Of a stretch of 64,000 bases of DNA, positions 6,172 to 47,846 are shown piece after piece. The notes below the pieces were generated by a model. That model was not told the origin of the DNA, searched no databases, and worked only from the letters and a program-made list of their open reading frames with translations. Every line of letters begins with the position of its first letter. The first letter of the stretch is position 1. The DNA comes from Qipengyuania soli (lineage in GTDB: Bacteria > Pseudomonadota > Alphaproteobacteria > Sphingomonadales > Sphingomonadaceae): the NCBI RefSeq assembly GCF_015529805.1, contig NZ_CP064654.1, positions 2,604,001 to 2,668,000 on the forward strand. Direction: 5' to 3'. The position numbers were made by a program, and so were the translations under genes.

Positions 6172-7567
6172 GGCCGACGTTCCCCAGGATTACGAAGATG
6201 AAGATGAGGGGCTGGTAGCGAAGGGTCGCGCCGGGGACAACGCCGAGCCGCTCTCGATCAGCGAAATCTCGCAGATGCTGAAGCGCACGGTCGAGGACCG
6301 TTTCGGCTTCGTGCGCCTGCGCGGCGAGCTGTCGGGAGTGAAGCGGGCGGCATCGGGCCATCTCTATTGCGCGCTTAAGGACGACAAGGCGGTCATCGAC
6401 GGGGTGATGTGGCGCGGCAGTGCCGAGCGCCTGCCGTTCCGGCCGGAGGACGGGCTGGAGGTCGTCGCCAGCGGCAAGCTCACCACCTATCCTGGCCGCT
6501 CCAAGTACCAGATCGTCATCGACCGCATGGAGCTTGCGGGCGAGGGCGCACTGCTCGCGCTGCTCGAGAAGACCCGTGCACGGCTGGCGGCGGAGGGACT
6601 GTTCGACGAACGCCGCAAGCGGGCGCTGCCGTTCCTGCCGAGGACCATCGGCGTCGTCACATCGCCTACCGGCGCGGTCATTCGCGACATCCTCCACCGC
6701 CTTGCCGACCGCTTTCCCACTCGCGTCATCGTCTGGCCGGTGCTGGTGCAGGGGCAGGGCGCGGCAGAGCAGGTGGCCGCGGCAGTGCGCGGCTTCTCCG
6801 CCATGCCCGAGGGCCATCCGGACCGCCCCGACCTCGTCATCGTCGCGCGCGGTGGCGGCTCGATCGAGGACCTGTGGTCCTTCAACGAGGAGGTCGTCGT
6901 CCGCGCCATCGCCGAATGCTCGATCCCCACGATCAGCGCGGTCGGGCACGAAACGGACACGACGCTGGCCGACTATGCCGCCGACCGCCGCGCACCCACA
7001 CCCACCGCGGCCGCCGAAATGGCCGTGCCGGTGCGCGCCGAACTCGCCGCGACGCTCAAGGATTTCGGTGCGCGCAAGGAGCGCGCTATTCTGCGGCCCG
7101 TGCAGCTGGGGCGCGAACGGCTGGAAGCGCGCGTCCAGCGCCTGCCGCGGCCCGAGGCACTGCTCCAGCCGCAGGCGCAGCGCCTCGACGATCTGGTGGG
7201 GCGCCTCGGAAATGGCTTGCGGGAAAGGGCCAATCGGGCGCGCGAGCGGCTCCAGTCGGATCGCGCACGGCTCAATGCCCCGCTGCTCAGGGCCAGAATC
7301 GAGCGGGCGCAGGACCGGTTGAGCGCGGTGGCGCGGCTGATGATCTCGCTCGATCCCGACAATGTGCTCCAGCGCGGCTATGTCCGGGTGGTCGGATCGG
7401 GCGGCACGGTGACCGACAAGGCGGTCGCTGCGAAGGAGGCCCTGCTGACCCTCAAGTTCCGCGACGGCGACCTTGCGGTTACTCCATCCGCCAGTGCATC
7501 GCCCCCGGTGCGGCGCAAGCCCGCGCCCCAGGGAACGCCGCCGAAGCAGGACGATTTGTTCGGATAG
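6170..7567 (+). CDS. xseA: Exodeoxyribonuclease VII large subunit XseA
   Basis: Large subunit of ExoVII, which degrades single-stranded DNA in repair. It is 465 residues. An OB-fold N-terminal domain begins near residue 28 with [15 protein letters not shown] and includes [11 protein letters not shown]. The catalytic domain holds [26 protein letters not shown] and [29 protein letters not shown] coiled-coil C-terminal region follows. The first ~27 residues are an acidic extension, so the true start could be a little downstream of the ATG at 6170. Confidence 0.96.
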
Positions 7568-22516: not shown

Positions 22517-22966
22517 TCAGAGCATGTAGCGCATGCGGATGGTAAGTGCCTGGTCCTGGCCACCGATATCGATGGCAGCATCGGAAAACTTCGGCGGGCC
22601 CATGCGCACTGCCGCATCGCGTGAGAAGCCGAAGCCTTCCTTGGGCATCATGCCCAGTGCCCGGTCGGCCTTGCCGTTGGAGTTTTCGTCATGGAGGAGA
22701 GCAATGGCGTATCGGCCCGGCTTTACGTCGGTGAAGGTGAAGCTCACGCTACCCTCGTGCGCCTGGGCCGTCGCGCCATAGGCACCGGGCACACCGCGAC
22801 ACTTCGGGAAACTCTTCATATCGGTGGTCATGCAGGCGCGAACGATGCCCTTGGCGTTGCGCACCTCGGTAACCTTGACGGTAATCGTTGCCCCGCCGGC
22901 GGGCGTTGTTGCACCACCGAGCATGGCGGCCAGGGGCAGGGCCAGTAAGGCGGCGAAGCGGCTCAT
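22517..22966 (-). CDS. DUF2141 exported protein
   Basis: A 149-residue exported protein. Signal peptide MSRFAALLALPLAAMLGGATTPAGGA, then the DUF2141 fold: VKVTEVRNAKGIVRACM, PGRYAIALLHDENSNGKAD with an EF-hand-like Asp/Asn loop, and FSRDA. Its function is unknown. Its ATG overlaps the stop of the sterol-desaturase family gene (ATGA), and DUF2141 next to such a hydroxylase suggests a linked membrane-lipid or carotenoid role. A second DUF2141 protein is encoded at 26877-27374. Confidence 0.85.
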   Translation of the reverse strand: MSRFAALLALPLAAMLGGATTPAGGATITVKVTEVRNAKGIVRACMTTDMKSFPKCRGVPGAYGATAQAHEGSVSFTFTDVKPGRYAIALLHDENSNGKADRALGMMPKEGFGFSRDAAVRMGPPKFSDAAIDIGGQDQALTIRMRYML

Positions 22967-23679
22967 ATGTTCGCGCTCAGTCCGTGGTCGGTGCCACAGA
23001 GCCGGTCCCAGAAACGGAAATAGAGGCCGTAATTGCATCGATACTCTTCATGGTGACGCTGGTGATGGCTGGCCGTTATCAACCATTCTCCCAACCGCGA
23101 ATGAACGAGCCGGCGGGGAAACATCTCCCAGCCCATGTGGTTGGTGACGCCCATCACCGTCATGACCAGAAGCACGAGTCCGAGCATGGCGACATGGATG
23201 GGTACGAGGAAAACGAGCGCCGGGATTACCACCGCCCCTGTAATCGCTTCCCACGGATGGAAGCTCATCGCGGCCCAGGCCGTCGGCGGGCGGCTGGCAT
23301 GGTGGACGGCATGGGCAATGCGGAACAGGCGCGGCCGATGCATCCAGCGATGGGTCCAGTAGAACCAGGTGTCGTGCGCGAAAAGAAAGATGAGCGGCGC
23401 CAGCGGCAGGTACCAAACGGGGTAGTCGGTCCAACCGGTGTATATCCGGGTCCAGCCATGCTCCTGCCAGCCCCAGGCGACGACGCCCGCGGGGATGCCG
23501 TAAATGGCCGCCGAGGCGAACGACCAGCCGATCTCGCGCCGGATCTGCGGGCCGAGCTTCGTGTGATAGCCGGGGCGGACATGCCGCGTTAGCAGGGCGA
23601 AGCCGCCGCTGGTCGCCAGGTAACGCACCGCGACGATGGCGGTCATGGCGAGTGCTGAAAAGGCGATCCCGGTCCACAT
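22963..23679 (-). CDS. Sterol desaturase/fatty acid hydroxylase family protein
   Basis: A 238-residue integral membrane diiron oxygenase. The histidine clusters of the family are intact: HDTWFYWTHRWMH, HAVHH, NHMGWE and ASHHQRHHEEY. Three or four hydrophobic segments surround them. Likely substrates are lipids, hopanoid/sterol-like molecules or carotenoids; CrtZ-type carotenoid hydroxylase is shorter and not a clear match. It starts MWTGIAFSALA at 23679, with nothing else upstream on this strand for 49 bases. Confidence 0.85.
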   Translation of the reverse strand: MWTGIAFSALAMTAIVAVRYLATSGGFALLTRHVRPGYHTKLGPQIRREIGWSFASAAIYGIPAGVVAWGWQEHGWTRIYTGWTDYPVWYLPLAPLIFLFAHDTWFYWTHRWMHRPRLFRIAHAVHHASRPPTAWAAMSFHPWEAITGAVVIPALVFLVPIHVAMLGLVLLVMTVMGVTNHMGWEMFPRRLVHSRLGEWLITASHHQRHHEEYRCNYGLYFRFWDRLCGTDHGLSANI

Positions 23680-24807: not shown

Positions 24808-24884
<77 letters not shown>

Positions 24885-25993: not shown

Positions 25994-26886
25994 GCGAAAC
26001 GCTCGGCCAGCGCGTGCGCGCTTCGCTGGCGCGCGAAATCCGTCCCGAAGTCGCTGCCTATGCCCGCAAGCTGGGCGAGGAGGCGGGCGCGCTCGGCGTG
26101 CTGTTCTACGGTTCGAACCTGCGCTCAGGATCGCTTGAGGGGGTACTCGATTTCTATGTCCTGCTGCCCGGCCCGCAGCGCGAGCGCGTGTGGCCGCGCG
26201 TGAGCTATCGCGAGTGGGAGTACGGCGGCGAAGTCCTGCGCGCCAAGATCGCGACGATGTCGCTCGAGCAGTTTGCGGCAGCAGCAACGGGCAAGTCTCG
26301 CGACACGACGATTTGGGCGCGTTTCGTCCAGCCCAGCGCGCTGATCTGGGTGCGAGACGAGGCTGCGCGGGAAGCGATCGCCGATGCGGTGACCGGTGCC
26401 GCGCGGACTGCTGCAAGGCTCGCAGCGGCTCTGGGTCCGGAAACCGGCGAGGCCGAGGACTATTGGCGGGCGCTTTTCAGGGCGACCTACCGCGCGGAGT
26501 TCCGGGTCGAGAAGCCCGGGCGCGAGGATTCGATCCTCTCTGTCAACCGCGAGCATTTCGACGGGCTGCTGCCCACGGCATGGCAGGCCGAGGGCATCGC
26601 GTTCGAATGCGAGGGTACGGAATTACATCCGGACTTACCGGAGGAACGGCGCCGCTCGATACTGAAATGGTGGAACAGTCGTGCGCGCCTCGGCAAGCCG
26701 CTCAACGTGCTGCGTCTGGCCAAGGCGACAACGACTTTCGACGGCGCTGCCGACTATGCCGCGTGGAAGCTCCACCGGCATACCGGCATCGAACTGAAGG
26801 TCACGCCGTTCCGCGCCCGCCATCCGCTGCTTGCGATGCCGGGCGCACTGGTCGAGCTGCTAAGAAAGCGCCGCGCTCAGCGGTAG
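25990..26886 (+). CDS. Possible Tam41-like CDP-DAG synthase
   Basis: A 298-residue protein, GTG start coupled to the DAG kinase. It looks like a nucleotidyltransferase of the Tam41/Mmp37 kind: YGSNLRSG at residues 40-47 with an acidic residue after it (Asp54 in LDFYVLL), LRAKIATMSLEQF at 83-95, RFVQPSALIW at 111-120 and a later FRATYRAEFRVEKPG. Tam41 makes CDP-diacylglycerol from phosphatidate and CTP. The family call is by pattern, not search. Its partner upstream could supply phosphatidate. Confidence 0.55.
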   Translation: MSETLGQRVRASLAREIRPEVAAYARKLGEEAGALGVLFYGSNLRSGSLEGVLDFYVLLPGPQRERVWPRVSYREWEYGGEVLRAKIATMSLEQFAAAATGKSRDTTIWARFVQPSALIWVRDEAAREAIADAVTGAARTAARLAAALGPETGEAEDYWRALFRATYRAEFRVEKPGREDSILSVNREHFDGLLPTAWQAEGIAFECEGTELHPDLPEERRRSILKWWNSRARLGKPLNVLRLAKATTTFDGAADYAAWKLHRHTGIELKVTPFRARHPLLAMPGALVELLRKRRAQR

Positions 26887-27374
26887 CGCATCTCGATGGT
26901 GATCGAGCGCACGCCAGGGCCGACGTCGAAAGCGGCCTTCTTGTAGTTCGGCTTGCCCAAGTTGAAGACGCTGACGCTCGGGTCGTTCGACATGGCGCCG
27001 CCATCGCCGAAGATGTCGGTCTTGCCGTTGCCGTTCAGATCGTGCCTTGCGGCGATGCCATAGGACCCGGGTCCGGGGACGGGAACGCAGAAGGTCATGC
27101 TGCCGGCTTTTGCCGGTGCCTCCATGCGATTGATCCACTTGCCCTTCTCCAGCCAGTCCTGCTTGGTCGCGCGGTAGCTCTGCACGCGGATGGTGCCGCG
27201 CGATTCCTTGATGTCGGTGATGGTGACGCGCACGGCGGAGCCGGCACCCGCGCTGCAGTTGGCGGGATTGTTGGAAATCTTGTCGCGGTACTGGGCCTGG
27301 ACCGGAACGGCGATTGCCGTGGCGGCCAGGGCAGCGCCGGCCATGCCGGCAAGGGCGAGTTTCGTCTTGGTCAT
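26877..27374 (-). CDS. DUF2141 exported protein (second copy)
   Basis: A 165-residue exported protein. The start at 27374 gives a signal peptide (KLALAGMAGAALAATAIAVPVQAQ). The body shares the DUF2141 pattern of the protein at 22517-22966: VRVTITDIKESRGTIRV, GSYGIAARHDLNGNGKTDIFG with the Asp/Asn-rich loop, and SITIEMRYR at the end. Its stop overlaps the end of the convergent Tam41-like gene by 10 bases. Function unknown. Confidence 0.83.
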   Translation of the reverse strand: MTKTKLALAGMAGAALAATAIAVPVQAQYRDKISNNPANCSAGAGSAVRVTITDIKESRGTIRVQSYRATKQDWLEKGKWINRMEAPAKAGSMTFCVPVPGPGSYGIAARHDLNGNGKTDIFGDGGAMSNDPSVSVFNLGKPNYKKAAFDVGPGVRSITIEMRYR

Positions 27375-27500
27375 TTCGATCCCTGTTGCTTCATTCACAC
27401 GGCCGCGGACATCGCGGCCAAGGCCGAACCACGGCCCTCTTCATTGGGCTTATTAGCATTTGGCACTGAATTGCGGCTGAATTTGCCCGCCAAGTGCCGT

Positions 27501-29150
27501 TCATGCTTCCTGCAGCCGCCCACCGCGCAGATGGAAACGCAGGCTCGCCACGTCAACCAGCGCGCCGCGATGGCCGATGATGAGGACGGTGCACGAACCC
27601 GCGAGGGCAGCCACAGCTCCGGCGATGAGGCGCTCGCTCTCCGGATCGACCGCGCTGGTTGCCTCGTCGAGGATCAGGAGGTCGGGCTCGCGCAGCAATG
27701 CGCGGGCAAGGGCGATCCTGTGCCGCTCGCCGCCCGACAGGTTTCGCCCCCCTTCTCCCAGCTGGTAATCGAGGCCATCGGGCAGGTCTGCCACGAAGCG
27801 CGCTGCCGCCCGATCCAGTGCGCGTTCGCACTCCGCGTCGCTGGCATCGGGCTTCGCCCAGAGCAGGTTGGATCTCACGGTACCGGTGAACAGGACCGGC
27901 TCCTGCTGGACGTAGGCGACCCGCGCCCGCCAGCCATGCCTCTGAGCCGGTGAAAATCCGCGCCCATCAAGCAGCATCTGGCCGGTGTCAGGGGAAATCA
28001 GGCCACCGAGGAGATCCGCGAGCGTGCTCTTGCCCGCGCCCGAGGGACCCTCGACGGCTGTGATGCTGCCACGCGGGATCGAGAGCGTGACACCATCGAG
28101 CGCCGCGCGGCCTCCAGCGTGCGAGACGCTGGCCGAGGACAAGGCAATGCTTTCCTGCATCGGCGGACAGGCCTCGGCAGGCATCTCGGCAACAGCCTCG
28201 ACGCCGGCGATAAGGTCCTGCGCCTCCGCAATGGCAGGTGCGGCGTGGTTCCATCCCTGCCAACCTTCCTGCAAGGCTTCGAGCAGGGGAATGCCGCGCA
28301 CGGCAATTGCTGCGAAGGTGATGAGGTGGGCCGGCCGCACACCCCAGCGCTCGACCGCCAGCCAGAGGAAGATCGCCAGGAGGATTGCTGCTGCCACTTG
28401 TAGGACCGAGCGCGCGAAGGCCGACTGGCGAAGATACTGCCGCTCCGCTCTGCGCAGGTCGGAGAAGGCCACACTGACACGGACTGCCTCGTCAGCCTCC
28501 CTGCCATAGCTCTTCACTATGCGGATGCTGGACAGGGTTTCCTCAAGCCTCAGGTAGACTTGCTCGTAACGTACCGAAAGCGCCTCGCCGAGCGAGCGCG
28601 CCGTACGCCGCGTTCCAGCGAAGAGAGCAACGGCCAGCGCTGCGGCAACGAGCATGGAAAGCGCGAAGGGTGGCGACAGAAACAGCCCGGCTACCAGCAG
28701 GGCGAGCAGGGCAACGAGACTGCGGACGAACGCCGTGGCATGGCCCACCGCCTCGCCGGCGCGGTCTACCGAAGTTATCAGCAAAGCGCGATTGGCGCTC
28801 TGTCGCATCGCCGCAAGCACACGCCATTCCGCTCCGAGCAGGGCGGCCACGGCCTCACTGCGGAGACCGTCGACGAGGCGCACCTGGAGATCGAAGGCGG
28901 CGAGCCCGCGCCACGCATCGACAAGGGCTCTTAGCGTTACCAGTCCCACGAAAATCGCCAGCAGAACGCCAAGCGACCAGTCGGGGAAGCCGGGAATGAG
29001 GTTCTCGCCTCCGCCGAGCGATGCCAGCAACGGGACGATCAGGACCAGGCCGAAGCCCTCGGTCGCGGCTGCAATTGCGGCCAGCATGACGAAGCCGGCG
29101 ACGCGTTTGCCACCGGCGTAGGACAGGAGCGAGACCAGGAACCGGTTCAT
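27501..29150 (-). CDS. ABC exporter of the RiPP cluster (fused TMD-NBD)
   Basis: A 549-residue half-transporter. An N-terminal six-helix membrane domain (about residues 10-300) is followed by an ATPase domain with Walker A GPSGAGKST (368-376), signature LSGGE (471-475) and Walker B LLILDEATSAVD (491 on). No C39 peptidase domain precedes the helices, so it would not trim a leader. It follows the asparagine-synthetase-like gene; a TTG at 29189 overlaps that stop (TTGA) but the ATG at 29150 is the better start. Position suggests export of the modified peptide. Confidence 0.88.
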   Translation of the reverse strand: MNRFLVSLLSYAGGKRVAGFVMLAAIAAATEGFGLVLIVPLLASLGGGENLIPGFPDWSLGVLLAIFVGLVTLRALVDAWRGLAAFDLQVRLVDGLRSEAVAALLGAEWRVLAAMRQSANRALLITSVDRAGEAVGHATAFVRSLVALLALLVAGLFLSPPFALSMLVAAALAVALFAGTRRTARSLGEALSVRYEQVYLRLEETLSSIRIVKSYGREADEAVRVSVAFSDLRRAERQYLRQSAFARSVLQVAAAILLAIFLWLAVERWGVRPAHLITFAAIAVRGIPLLEALQEGWQGWNHAAPAIAEAQDLIAGVEAVAEMPAEACPPMQESIALSSASVSHAGGRAALDGVTLSIPRGSITAVEGPSGAGKSTLADLLGGLISPDTGQMLLDGRGFSPAQRHGWRARVAYVQQEPVLFTGTVRSNLLWAKPDASDAECERALDRAAARFVADLPDGLDYQLGEGGRNLSGGERHRIALARALLREPDLLILDEATSAVDPESERLIAGAVAALAGSCTVLIIGHRGALVDVASLRFHLRGGRLQEA

Positions 29151-29185
29151 GTCGCATCCCGTCTGCCCGCGCTCGCCCGGCGCTG

Positions 29186-31075
29186 TCAAAACTCGTTCCT
29201 TCCCTCGACTGTCCCAATGAAGCGCACGGCCATCAGGGCGCGCGGCAAGGCAGTGCGCAGCGGCCAGTCATGTTCGATCGTGAAGTCGGGTGCTTCGGGC
29301 CAGGTGTCGAGCATGCCGATCAACCTTTCGAGATCGAGGTTCTCGGCCAGCCAGCCATGGTCCGCGGCGGCAACAAAGGCCGCGCGCATCGCCTCCCTCT
29401 CGCGCGACATGCGCACGTGCCAGTCGACATTGTGTTGCCCGTGGAGGACGTTGGTGCGGATGCTCTCCGGAACCCGGCCGCGTCCCATCAGTCGGGCAAG
29501 GCGCCGGTCGGTCCCGTCCCAGGCATAGGCGCGCAGCGGGAGCGAGAGACAGAACTCGACCAGAGGGCGATAGGCGCAGACGTCGCGCTTGCGGATGCGG
29601 TAGAGTTGTTCGAACGCCAAATCGACGTCGCGCGCCGGACCGTCCGCGTCCTGCCATTCGCGTTCGATCATCGCCCGGCGGGTGAGATCGTAGGTGAAGT
29701 CTTCGAGCGCGGCCTCAGTACCCCTTGCCGCTGCAAGCCGTCTCTGCCTCTTCCACCCTCTCGGGGATAGAGGTGACAAGAATGCCGCGAAGTCACGCCG
29801 GGCGGGATGGACGAGGGCGCGAAGGACACTGCGCAACGAGCGCGGCGCGCGCGGAAGGAGGCTCAAGGCGATGAACTTGCGGTGCAAAGACCGGGGATCG
29901 CCGCTTCTCGCTTCGAGCAACCGCTTGAGCTGCCGGAACCGTCCTGGTCGGACGTATTCGGTATAGGCTTCCAGTCCCTCATTGCTGAAAGTGAGGTTGC
30001 CGAAGTCTGCAACCAATAGAGCGTCGCATTCCAGTTCGCGCGCCTTGGCGTAGACATCGTGGTACATGCCAACGTTCGACAGGCCCTGCGCAAACACGCC
30101 CGATGCAGCGTACATTTCCTTTGCCCGGCGGTCGAATGCCCCGGGGTGGCGGTCGGCAAGATGCCAGTCGAGTGCCGGGTTTCCTTTAACGAATTCCCTG
30201 ACGAGGCTTGTCTCGTCGCCCATGGTACCGGGTGGCGTTTCTCCCTGCCACTCCTCGTCCGGGGCAAACGTAATGGCCGTCAGAGTCTCCGCCTGCGGAA
30301 GCCTGTCGAGCAGGGCGCGTGCGACGAGCGGGGAATCGAGGCCGCCCGAAAGCGCCAGGGCGGGCTTCGCTGCCCAGGCCAGCGCCTTGCCGGCCGCTTC
30401 GTCCAGCAAGGCGATGGCCTGCGCAACGGCAGCATCCTCGTCGAATTCGTTGTCCGGCGCCGGAGCGGGAGGCGAATACCAGCGGTGGGTTTCCCGTCCG
30501 CCGGGCGTGAGCGACACGATCGCGCCCAAAGGGACCATACCGATGCCGCGGTACCATGCCGCCTCGTCGCCAGAGCGCCAGTCGAGTGCGAGTTCGTCGA
30601 TAATGCGTTCGTAGTCGAGCTCGCGCGGCGCTCCTGCGGCGAACAGCACTCGGAGAAGGGGCGAAGCGACCGCGCGGTTCGCGTCGCGGTGATAGTAGAG
30701 TGGCGGCGCCTCCCAGGGGGACCTGCTCAGCCTCAGGCAGCCGTTCGGCATTACCAGAACCGCAGCATAGCAGCCGATGATGCGGGCATCGGCATCGCTT
30801 CCCCAACTTGCGACTGCTGCAGCATAAAGAGCCGCAAGGTCGTCCGCAGCCACCTGCAGCGTCCCGGCCAGTTCCGCGGCGTTGTCTATCCACCCGCAGA
30901 AGGCCGAGCCTGTCGCGTGACTTGTGGCGATGCGGTCGCGAGGCCCTGCGCCGAGGCAAAACCCGGCTGCCGAGCGGACTTCGACGCCCGTGTCATCATA
31001 GAGCGCGAGGCTGGCCCTGATGGCTTGGGCGGGCGGCTCTTCCGCGCCGCCCCAGCGGCTCCACGCAGCGATCAT
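29186..31075 (-). CDS. Asparagine-synthetase-like lasso cyclase (C protein)
   Basis: A 629-residue protein. The C-terminal ATP-pyrophosphatase domain carries SGGLDS at 243-248, the nucleotide-binding PP-loop used to adenylate a carboxylate. The N-terminal half keeps the class II glutaminase fold (CGWIDN, PLYYHRD) but lacks the nucleophile Cys2 (residue 2 is Ile), so it should not hydrolyse glutamine. That matches lasso-peptide cyclases rather than true asparagine synthetases. It is 24 bases after the 45-residue precursor gene, with PqqD and an ABC exporter alongside. Confidence 0.82.
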   Translation of the reverse strand: MIAAWSRWGGAEEPPAQAIRASLALYDDTGVEVRSAAGFCLGAGPRDRIATSHATGSAFCGWIDNAAELAGTLQVAADDLAALYAAAVASWGSDADARIIGCYAAVLVMPNGCLRLSRSPWEAPPLYYHRDANRAVASPLLRVLFAAGAPRELDYERIIDELALDWRSGDEAAWYRGIGMVPLGAIVSLTPGGRETHRWYSPPAPAPDNEFDEDAAVAQAIALLDEAAGKALAWAAKPALALSGGLDSPLVARALLDRLPQAETLTAITFAPDEEWQGETPPGTMGDETSLVREFVKGNPALDWHLADRHPGAFDRRAKEMYAASGVFAQGLSNVGMYHDVYAKARELECDALLVADFGNLTFSNEGLEAYTEYVRPGRFRQLKRLLEARSGDPRSLHRKFIALSLLPRAPRSLRSVLRALVHPARRDFAAFLSPLSPRGWKRQRRLAAARGTEAALEDFTYDLTRRAMIEREWQDADGPARDVDLAFEQLYRIRKRDVCAYRPLVEFCLSLPLRAYAWDGTDRRLARLMGRGRVPESIRTNVLHGQHNVDWHVRMSREREAMRAAFVAAADHGWLAENLDLERLIGMLDTWPEAPDFTIEHDWPLRTALPRALMAVRFIGTVEGRNEF

Positions 31076-31099
31076 GATCTCGGGAGCCGGAAAGCGTGA

Positions 31100-31237
31100 T
31101 CAGGATTTCTTGGAATTGGCGGCCTGGTTGTTGGGGAAATTGCGCACGGCGATGTCGCGGATCGACCCAACCTTGTCGAGCCGCGGTTTGCTCCATGTCG
31201 GCTTCGCATTGCTGCCGCTCTTTTGCTCTTCCGTCAT
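31100..31237 (-). CDS. Lasso-type RiPP precursor peptide (45 aa)
   Basis: A small gene preceded by GAAGGG nine bases upstream. The leader holds W-x2-P-x-L-x3-G (Trp15, Pro18, Leu20, Gly24), the lasso RRE-recognition pattern Y-x2-P-x-L-x3-G with Trp for Tyr. The usual Thr five residues after Gly is Ala30. The predicted core from about Arg32 is RNFPNNQAANSKKS. It has no Gly1 and no Asp or Glu at core position 7-9, so a classical macrolactam is unlikely. It lies between the PqqD-like and asparagine-synthetase-like genes. Confidence 0.65.
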   Translation of the reverse strand: MTEEQKSGSNAKPTWSKPRLDKVGSIRDIAVRNFPNNQAANSKKS

Positions 31238-31295
31238 AGCATCGCGCCCTTCACTGGTTGGCGGTACATTAGCAAATCACTGCAGGCACAGGAAG

Positions 31296-31562
31296 TCATA
31301 CCAATTCGACCAATGCAGCCCGTTCGAGGTCGGAGAGTAGCTCATCGATATCGTCTGCGATCAGGCGCACATCTCCATCATGGGCAATCGCCATGCTTTC
31401 GGCGATGAGCGCAGCATCCGATACGCCGTCGATCGCATGCCAGACGGCGCGGGCCGTGCCCGACAGCGAGAACAGGAAACCGCCGTCGAGATCGACGATC
31501 AGAGTCTCGTCGTCGACCTCGGTCGCGACGAAGTTCGCGGTCAGCTTGCGGGGAATCGCCAT
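31296..31562 (-). CDS. PqqD-like stand-alone RRE protein (lasso B1)
   Basis: An 88-residue PqqD family protein, which binds the precursor leader and presents it to the maturase. It has the PqqD beta-wing pattern (ATEVDDETLIVDLDGGFLFSLSGTARAVW) and a helical C-terminus ending ERAALVELV. In lasso systems of this split type B1 and the protease B2 are separate genes; only B1 is present here. RBS GAGGGG precedes ATG 31562. First gene of the minus-strand cluster. Confidence 0.85.
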   Translation of the reverse strand: MAIPRKLTANFVATEVDDETLIVDLDGGFLFSLSGTARAVWHAIDGVSDAALIAESMAIAHDGDVRLIADDIDELLSDLERAALVELV

Positions 31563-47761: not shown

Positions 47762-47846
47762 GCGGGTGTGGCGGAATGGTAGACGCCGGGGACTTAAAAT
47801 CCCCTGTCCCTTGGACGTGTGGGTTCGAGTCCCACCACCCGCACCA
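47762..47846 (+). tRNA. tRNA-Leu (anticodon UAA)
   Basis: An 85-base class II tRNA with encoded CCA. Acceptor GCGGGTG/CACCCGC, anticodon stem GGGGA/TCCCC around loop CTTAAAA (UAA), a long variable arm, and T-arm GTGGG-TTCGAGT-CCCAC. Confidence 0.97.

Follow-up and report, generated by a model that had tools for sequence, protein, structure and literature searches.

A lasso-type RiPP locus of Qipengyuania soli with a glutamine in the ring-acceptor column and a B2 homologue encoded 0.84 Mb away

A stretch of 64,000 nucleotides from the chromosome of Qipengyuania soli (G000:C1:2604001-2668000, hereafter the window; the host genome is a single contig of 2.91 Mb) encodes a ribosomally synthesized and post-translationally modified peptide (RiPP) locus of the lasso type, whose precursor carries Gln instead of Asp or Glu in the ring-acceptor column and whose B2 protease appears to be supplied from elsewhere in the genome. 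On balance, and with somewhat better than even confidence, we favour a lasso-type pathway that is completed in trans by this B2 and in which the cyclase acts on the conserved Gln. Lasso peptides are defined by an isopeptide bond to Asp or Glu, and the acceptor position also helps core recognition. Lasso pathways with a split B protein (genes A, B1, B2, C and D) include those of the paeninodin and fusilassin types. The non-canonical features had been described, in a first reading of the window (the original prediction), for this one locus; they run across a whole clade of related cyclases.

The locus and its precursor family

Four genes lie on the minus strand in the order B1, A, C, D. B1 (31296..31562) encodes a PqqD-like RiPP recognition element of 88 amino acids, which passes the Pfam model PqqD PF05402 (37.9 bits, cut-off 23.4) and is matched by the NCBIfam lasso PqqD models with scores below their cut-offs. 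A (31100..31237) encodes the precursor peptide of 45 amino acids, MTEEQKSGSNAKPTWSKPRLDKVGSIRDIAVRNFPNNQAANSKKS, with the predicted core RNFPNNQAANSKKS (31103..31144). C (29186..31075) encodes an asparagine-synthetase-like (AS-like) cyclase of 629 amino acids. D (27501..29189) encodes an ATP-binding cassette (ABC) exporter with fused membrane and ATPase domains (PF00664 and PF00005), in which no peptidase domain was found. All four open reading frames (ORFs) were verified and, together with the Pfam matches, bear out the gene assignments of the original prediction. Its description of the precursor also stands: the leader has the lasso pattern, Ala replaces the usual Thr, and the core is free of Asp and Glu. 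An overlapping ORF at 31072-31209 was considered as the precursor and rejected, the conserved frame being 31100-31237. Neither NCBIfam nor Pfam holds a model of the precursor family.

The wider distribution was followed in a quick tree of 60 cyclase loci (40 + 20), where the window belongs to a clade of 42 rows (support 100 in the Shimodaira-Hasegawa-like approximate likelihood ratio test, SH-aLRT). At all but one of the 42 loci, a precursor of one family is encoded immediately before the cyclase; the exception (L062) is truncated where its contig ends. The hidden Markov model used was seeded from pattern-picked members of the same locus set and yielded 42 precursors at the 41 loci. An exporter homologue adjoins the cyclase in 24 of the 29 loci of a subset of the clade. 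The window leader, W15-S-K-P-R-L-D-K-V-G24, fits the lasso pattern W/Y-x2-P-x-L-x3-G, which is common to all 42 aligned precursors, partly since the pattern served for picking them and for setting the register. Position -2 is Ala30 in the window, and Ala in 40 and Lys in two of the 42 precursors; Asp(-4), counted from the leader Gly as G0, is kept in 40. The core was placed by canonical leader spacing, that of fusilassin, and could be cut one residue earlier, giving VRNFPNNQ....

In a draw of ten genomes of the genus, each of the seven cluster-bearing members has one strong precursor copy (E <= 1.4e-18), while a search in the three members without the cluster returned nothing better than E 0.2. 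Among three close precursor copies from other Qipengyuania species, the ratio of non-synonymous to synonymous substitution rates (dN/dS) is 0.09-0.13, a sign of purifying selection on the precursor as judged from these three copies. Because the family recurs upstream of the cyclase at 41 of 42 loci and dN/dS is low, the precursor ORF is, on this comparison, not a chance one. The short ORF is thus neither missing from homologous loci nor unconserved across the clade, the two outcomes which the original prediction had named as speaking against it. We give next to no credence to a decaying or non-functional lasso locus. Such a state could account for the local absence of B2 and for the absence of an acidic acceptor, but the SGGLDS motif of the cyclase is intact, dN/dS of the precursor is about 0.1 in three related copies, the precursor is conserved across genera and the distal B2 is retained along with it. 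A pseudogene specific to the window was likewise rejected.

A conserved glutamine in the acceptor column

Core position 7 is Gln in 35 of the 42 precursors, Glu in two (L057, L058) and Asp in one (L174); the remaining four have Gln8 (L054, L166) or Asn8 (L067, L179). One of D, E, N or Q therefore stands at core position 7 or 8 in 42/42 precursors; the pair 6 or 7 reaches 39/42 through the same column, and the next best pair only 22. Counted by locus, Gln is found at core position 7 or 8 in 36 of the 41 loci. Position 7 carries 3.25 bits of information, the highest value among core columns 1-9, where the others range from 0.95 to 2.1. In the window the residue is Gln38, encoded by the codon at 31124..31126 on the minus strand, and Gln7 recurs in four further Qipengyuania precursors outside these counts. 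By contrast, core positions 7-9 are devoid of Asp and Glu in the window and in 35/42 precursors altogether, and 24/42, again including that of the window, have no acidic residue anywhere in the core. The alignment of precursors from related genomes, proposed earlier as a check, thus uncovers a conserved core column with a different residue. The earlier statement that the usual macrolactam is ruled out is correct for a lactam to Asp/Glu, but it overlooked Gln38 in the acceptor column. The suggestion of a different chemistry may hold and gains support from the clade-wide Gln at this position.

Rows with Glu7 or Asp7 are scattered in the tree inside the Gln clade. In our register, Asp8 is found in L063, L064 and L176, the only strong precursors from the nearest sister group, and Asp7 in weak candidates from neighbouring clades (L178, L180 and L182); several loci of the neighbouring clades are without a sure precursor. 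One locus (L043, in G015) encodes tandem precursors at 6421-6630 and 6669-6833; one has Gln7-Asp8, the other Gln7-Ala8 in a core free of acidic residues. In an outgroup clade, the core of a weak candidate precursor (L181:3865-4014; ...AGTSGFNSQNAGRSFKSGGQS) likewise lacks Asp and Glu, a possible independent case of Gln/Asn.

The acidic rows could be taken to mean that Gln7 is first deamidated to Glu, by C or by an unlinked enzyme, and that an ordinary lasso lactam follows. Glu7 or Asp7 does occupy the same column in 3/42 precursors. However, no deamidase gene is seen among the four cluster genes and, if Glu were needed, there is no evident reason for the 35 rows with Gln. We consider such a route improbable; its product would have the mass expected from direct transamidation, and it overlaps the lactam branch of the pathway that we favour.

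An unlinked B2 homologue co-inherited with the cluster

The 18 kb that surround the locus contain no B2 gene. In the complete genome, PF13471 has one match over the cut-off (E 2.7e-19), a B2 homologue of 149 amino acids at about 1789713-1790162 of G000:C1, outside the window and 0.84 Mb from the cluster; three other matches have E values of 0.005 or worse and stops inside. The absence of B2 noted for the locus thus holds for the neighbourhood and not for the genome. An unlinked protease had been offered as one explanation, and a B2 homologue elsewhere as something to look for; the host genome supplies it, and it is co-inherited with the cluster as described below. A product that keeps its leader for want of a B2, offered as another explanation, loses ground accordingly and was rejected. 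Cys84 and His119 are both present in this B2 and are invariant in ten aligned B2s of its type; a PDB profile search with it gave no match. At the genome level, the host thus encodes a putative, though unlinked, leader peptidase. The gene directly precedes what we take to be an acyl-CoA dehydrogenase gene, and on its other side lies a small Cys-rich copper-protein-like gene, presumably csp. The dehydrogenase gene adjoins B2 in 8/10 loci of the B2 alignment A1 (the exceptions are G222 and G037) and also in G374, G333, G305, G274 and G104, whereas there is no B2 at the dehydrogenase gene of G120, G322, G291 and G016.

PF13471 is named Transglut_core3, and B2, having a transglutaminase-like fold, might itself make an isopeptide bond from Gln while C only folds the peptide. 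In real transglutaminases Gln is the acyl donor, and the invariant Cys and His would suit such a role. On the other hand, a Lys partner is not universal, Lys adjoining the last residue in 18/42 precursors, and known B2 proteins are leader proteases (PMC10368454). We regard this alternative as very improbable and continue to treat B2 as the candidate leader protease.

Within the genus draw, the seven genomes with the cluster also have a B2 of this type (orphan-type), and the three others have neither (P = 0.008, in a comparison of few genomes; all P values ignore kinship). In all seven, the window included, B1 is divergent from the adjoining gene, which we take to be rpe; at the cluster site of the other three, the DUF2141 gene comes next. 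In two of these (G078 and G393), the B2 site still has csp on one side and the dehydrogenase gene on the other, but B2 itself is missing from it. The third (G354) has decayed remnants at both sites. The B2 remnant comprises 53 residues before the dehydrogenase gene (L207:1280-1438; E 1e-7 to 3e-9 in small databases). The B1 remnant, its first 26 residues beside rpe (L216:1377-1300; E 0.003), is assigned from place and orientation; judged by eye, it continues into sequence that resembles what follows the exporter gene. The remnants are consistent with joint loss, a natural record of how a split pathway disappears. That two distant loci were lost in the same genomes argues for one pathway. Taken together, the split architecture and the co-inheritance of B2 with the cluster are supported by these genome comparisons.

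The survey extends beyond the genus. Of the 42 loci of the clade, B2 is linked in 17, one (L062) is truncated and 24 have no B2 within 5 kb of the cyclase, as counted on the stretch fetched, which for L165 is limited on one side by a contig end. In all 24 cases the genome has a B2 elsewhere (17 from a draw of 248 genomes and seven from a set of 397 family genomes). Within the draw this amounts to 17/17, versus 58/200 genomes without the cyclase, and any PF13471 protein is found in 48/48 genomes with a cyclase match at E <= 1e-10, versus the same 58/200. This other B2 is orphan-type in 16 genomes, stands beside a second cyclase in G002, G158 and G096, and is of other types in G208, G092 and G273; in G135 it lies at a distance of 5.6 kb, and G065 has two, one at 8.6 kb and one on a different contig. 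Supply in trans thus seems to be the usual arrangement, and more than one B2 seems to provide it. Of the 397 family genomes, 21 have an orphan-type B2 (over 170 bits; the next match has 131), and the cyclase (E <= 1e-30) is present in 16 of these versus 45 of the 376 others.

A scan of titled relatives (8-row cyclase alignment A3; 11 titled loci, including four metagenome-assembled genomes, MAGs) places cyclase relatives in further Qipengyuania species, Pontixanthobacter luteolus, Parerythrobacter lutipelagi and MAGs. A single-protein scan of genome contigs returned 23 pattern stretches and no relative. In a class-wide search, 7/318 genomes match, the six beyond the host at E 6e-27 to 1e-65, but no ORF at these loci reaches 10 bits as a precursor (best 9.3, at L244) within a flank of 1.5 kb, with two loci also searched in three frames. 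On this search, the Gln family seems, as far as seen, not to extend beyond the GTDB family to which the window belongs. Among plasmid records there is one distant match, from Tistrella.

The cyclase is distinct from asparagine synthetases

Cyclase C passes the Asn_synthase model PF00733 only narrowly (24.3 bits, cut-off 21), compared with 333 bits for AsnB of the host itself, and its NCBIfam scores are all far below cut-off, with nearly equal values for the lasso-type cyclase models (NF033561 34.9 bits, NF033535 33.1) and for AsnB (TIGR01536 33.7). The SGGLDS motif is intact at residues 243-248 and the protein starts with MIAAW, so that residue 2 is Ile and not the glutaminase Cys, both as noted in the original prediction. 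Residue 2 is not Cys in 16/16 aligned members, which fits an intramolecular amine as the nucleophile. In a quick tree, 13/13 AsnB rows form a separate clade with support of 100, and the window protein groups with cyclases of lasso-type loci; the AsnB labels rest on profile scores, and the AS-like protein of G016 is absent from this tree. The grouping with true asparagine synthetases that had been named as the third damaging outcome did not materialize, and this identity was rejected, the protein having no Cys2 and lying outside the AsnB clade. We therefore assign it to the AS-like cyclases without glutaminase Cys, distinct from AsnB. The nearest solved relatives are 7ylz and 1jgt by sequence profile, and TsnB9 and the carbapenam and beta-lactam synthetases by the fold of a weak model. 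This model is useful for the fold, but its quality near the active site does not permit docking arguments.

Proposed pathway and the points against it

In the pathway that we propose, split over two chromosomal sites, B1 would bind the W-x2-P-x-L-x3-G leader and recruit the B2 cysteine protease encoded 0.84 Mb away, which would remove the leader after the Ala(-2)-x site. Cyclase C, with ATP, would link the N-terminus released by this cut to the conserved Gln7 of the core through its side chain, and exporter D would secrete the ring-bearing peptide. The Gln side chain could become a lactam with loss of NH3, directly or through Glu (net -17.03 Da), or, if its oxygen is adenylated, a macro-amidine with loss of H2O (-18.01 Da). 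For the core RNFPNNQAANSKKS, the calculated masses are 1574.791 (linear), 1557.765 (lactam) and 1556.781 (amidine or head-to-tail ring); for a core that begins with Val, they are 1673.860, 1656.833 and 1655.849. We infer the cut of the window leader by B2, the ring-closing role of Gln7 and the type of bond from the gene set and its conservation. A ring through Gln7 is probable by a modest measure, and an ordinary lactam is somewhat more likely than a macro-amidine. Amide activation is known in argininosuccinate synthetase and TilS, which belong to the same ATP-pyrophosphatase superfamily. We are doubtful of the more novel reading, in which AS-like cyclases of one clade, from Qipengyuania and its relatives, adenylate the conserved Gln (or Asn) at its side-chain amide for attack by the N-terminus, to give a lasso-like macro-amidine in a split pathway. 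Since the Asp/Glu acceptor is lacking, we do not file the product as a lasso peptide proper; the pathway would nonetheless work like a lasso pathway.

Several observations speak against this proposal. The C-terminal Ser is more constant than Gln7 (41/42 precursors, 4.16 bits; L168 ends in Thr) and offers another carboxylate. Gly stands at -1 in 32/42 rows, and the cleavage register is uncertain. Gly is at core position 1 in 3/3 rows with Glu7 or Asp7 versus 2/39 others, so that, by the alignment, the acceptor may not be all that sets the acidic rows apart, and their register may differ as well. Some Gln rows have Asp at position 6 or 8. Cyclase columns that separate the Gln clade from the outgroup follow the clade and not the acceptor; the outgroup (n=11) was hand-picked, some of its members being without a confirmed acidic core and the distant rows L069-L074 and L183 left out, and the acceptor labels were assigned by hand. 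The AlphaFold model of the cyclase has a mean predicted local distance difference test (pLDDT) score of 67 and is weak around the active site.

The pairing with B2 is not clean either. Five of the 21 genomes with an orphan-type B2 have no window-type cyclase (G016, G104, G120, G291 and G322); each has another AS-like gene (95-109 bits, and 50 in G322), located 6-9 kb from the orphan-type B2 in G120, G291, G322 and G104 and on another contig in G016. In G002, G158, G096 and G222, B2 is near a second cyclase, and the pairing is not exclusive. The product is a prediction from the genes. PMC10368454 and the review PMC13352647 name Asp/Glu as the acceptor, and a literature search covering titles and abstract openings, with most subscription journals outside it, returned no lasso peptide with a Gln acceptor and no lasso cluster with an unlinked B2.

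As a separate observation, the second cyclase is more distant and stands beside B2 at L113, L114 and L116 (G002, G158 and G096, respectively) and L108 (G222), while the Gln-type cluster of these genomes has none beside it. One B2 may possibly be shared by two pathways there.

The constant C-terminal Ser suggests a further alternative, in which the pathway is split as proposed and C activates the carboxylate of this Ser, leading to a head-to-tail ring or another C-terminal change, with Gln7 serving recognition or folding only. The C-terminal alpha-carboxylate is the sole carboxylate in 24/42 cores, among them L168 with its terminal Thr, and AS-like RiPP enzymes that modify the C-terminus exist (PMC13060819). 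Nevertheless, the C-terminal Ser does not track the loss of the acid because the three Asp8 sister precursors and 13 weaker outgroup candidates also end in Ser, which tempers the objection above. The presence of D/E/N/Q at position 7 or 8 in every precursor counts against this reading too, and a cyclase without the glutaminase Cys makes ammonia-dependent amidation less likely, although free ammonia may serve. We find the C-terminal route unlikely and prefer ring closure through Gln7. The 13 weak candidates (L065, L066, L069-L072, L074, L177, L178 and L180-L183; 8-16 bits, some not beside a cyclase) recall, in their terminal Ser, the phosphorylated peptides of the paeninodin type.

If AS-like cyclases close rings on amides, the chemistry of the lasso class and of engineered macrocycles would widen, and a macro-amidine, if true, would be a new linkage for the class. 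Otherwise, with the machinery conserved as it is, these cyclases act in some other way on a lasso-like precursor. The tie to a distal B2 implies, moreover, that clusters which look incomplete can be complete at the genome level, and heterologous expression without the distal B2 would be expected to fail.

Relation to known systems

The closest parallel is with the split-B lasso pathways, which share the leader motif, B1, B2 (here in trans), an AS-like cyclase that lacks the glutaminase Cys, and an ABC exporter without peptidase. In the window, Gln takes the place of Asp/Glu at the ring position and Ala that of Thr at -2, and B2 is unlinked. The cyclase is sister to those of other sphingomonad loci, and at three of these the precursor carries Asp8. 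A natural exception to the Thr(-2) rule is BsfA of Bradymonas sediminis, which has Ile(-2) (PMC10368454) but, unlike the window, also Gly1 and Asp8, a B2 inside the bsf cluster and a kinase. The same paper mentions predicted precursors with Ile, Val or Ala at -2, those with Ile/Val(-2) also in Sphingomonadales, and the Ala(-2) trait alone is therefore not new. As for residue 1, it can be Asn, as in metanodin (PMC12670498). Lasso clusters were predicted in Erythrobacter and Qipengyuania (PMC9723273, PMC9318849), the family of the window not being described in the available text of either paper; the cluster of PMC9318849 has a B2 and an isopeptidase. In a Sphingomonas lasso locus (PMC11006600), B2 is linked and the core is a different one that contains Asp.

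Proteases far from their cluster have a precedent in unclustered lanthipeptide proteases, found by genome-wide correlation (PMC8960859), although both the RiPP class and the proteases are different. A proposed precedent for amide activation by an AS-like RiPP enzyme is the nitrile synthetase PesC (PMC13060819), which would activate an amide at the C-terminus as an AMP-imidate, the intermediate to the nitrile. It differs in acting on the C-terminus, in taking nitrogen from glutamine or ammonia and in forming a nitrile and no ring; the window cyclase has no glutaminase Cys for a glutamine-dependent nitrogen supply of the PesC type. Finally, the beta-lactam and carbapenam synthetases and the hydroxyamidotransferase TsnB9 (1jgt, 1q15 and 7ylz), the nearest relatives of solved structure, act on small-molecule substrates.

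Other features of the window

Two related proteins of 173 amino acids are encoded at 22517-23038 and 26877-27398. The latter is a DUF2141 protein according to Pfam, and the former weakly matches the same places. The window also contains tRNA-Arg(CCG) at 24808-24884 and tRNA-Leu(TAA) at 47762-47846.

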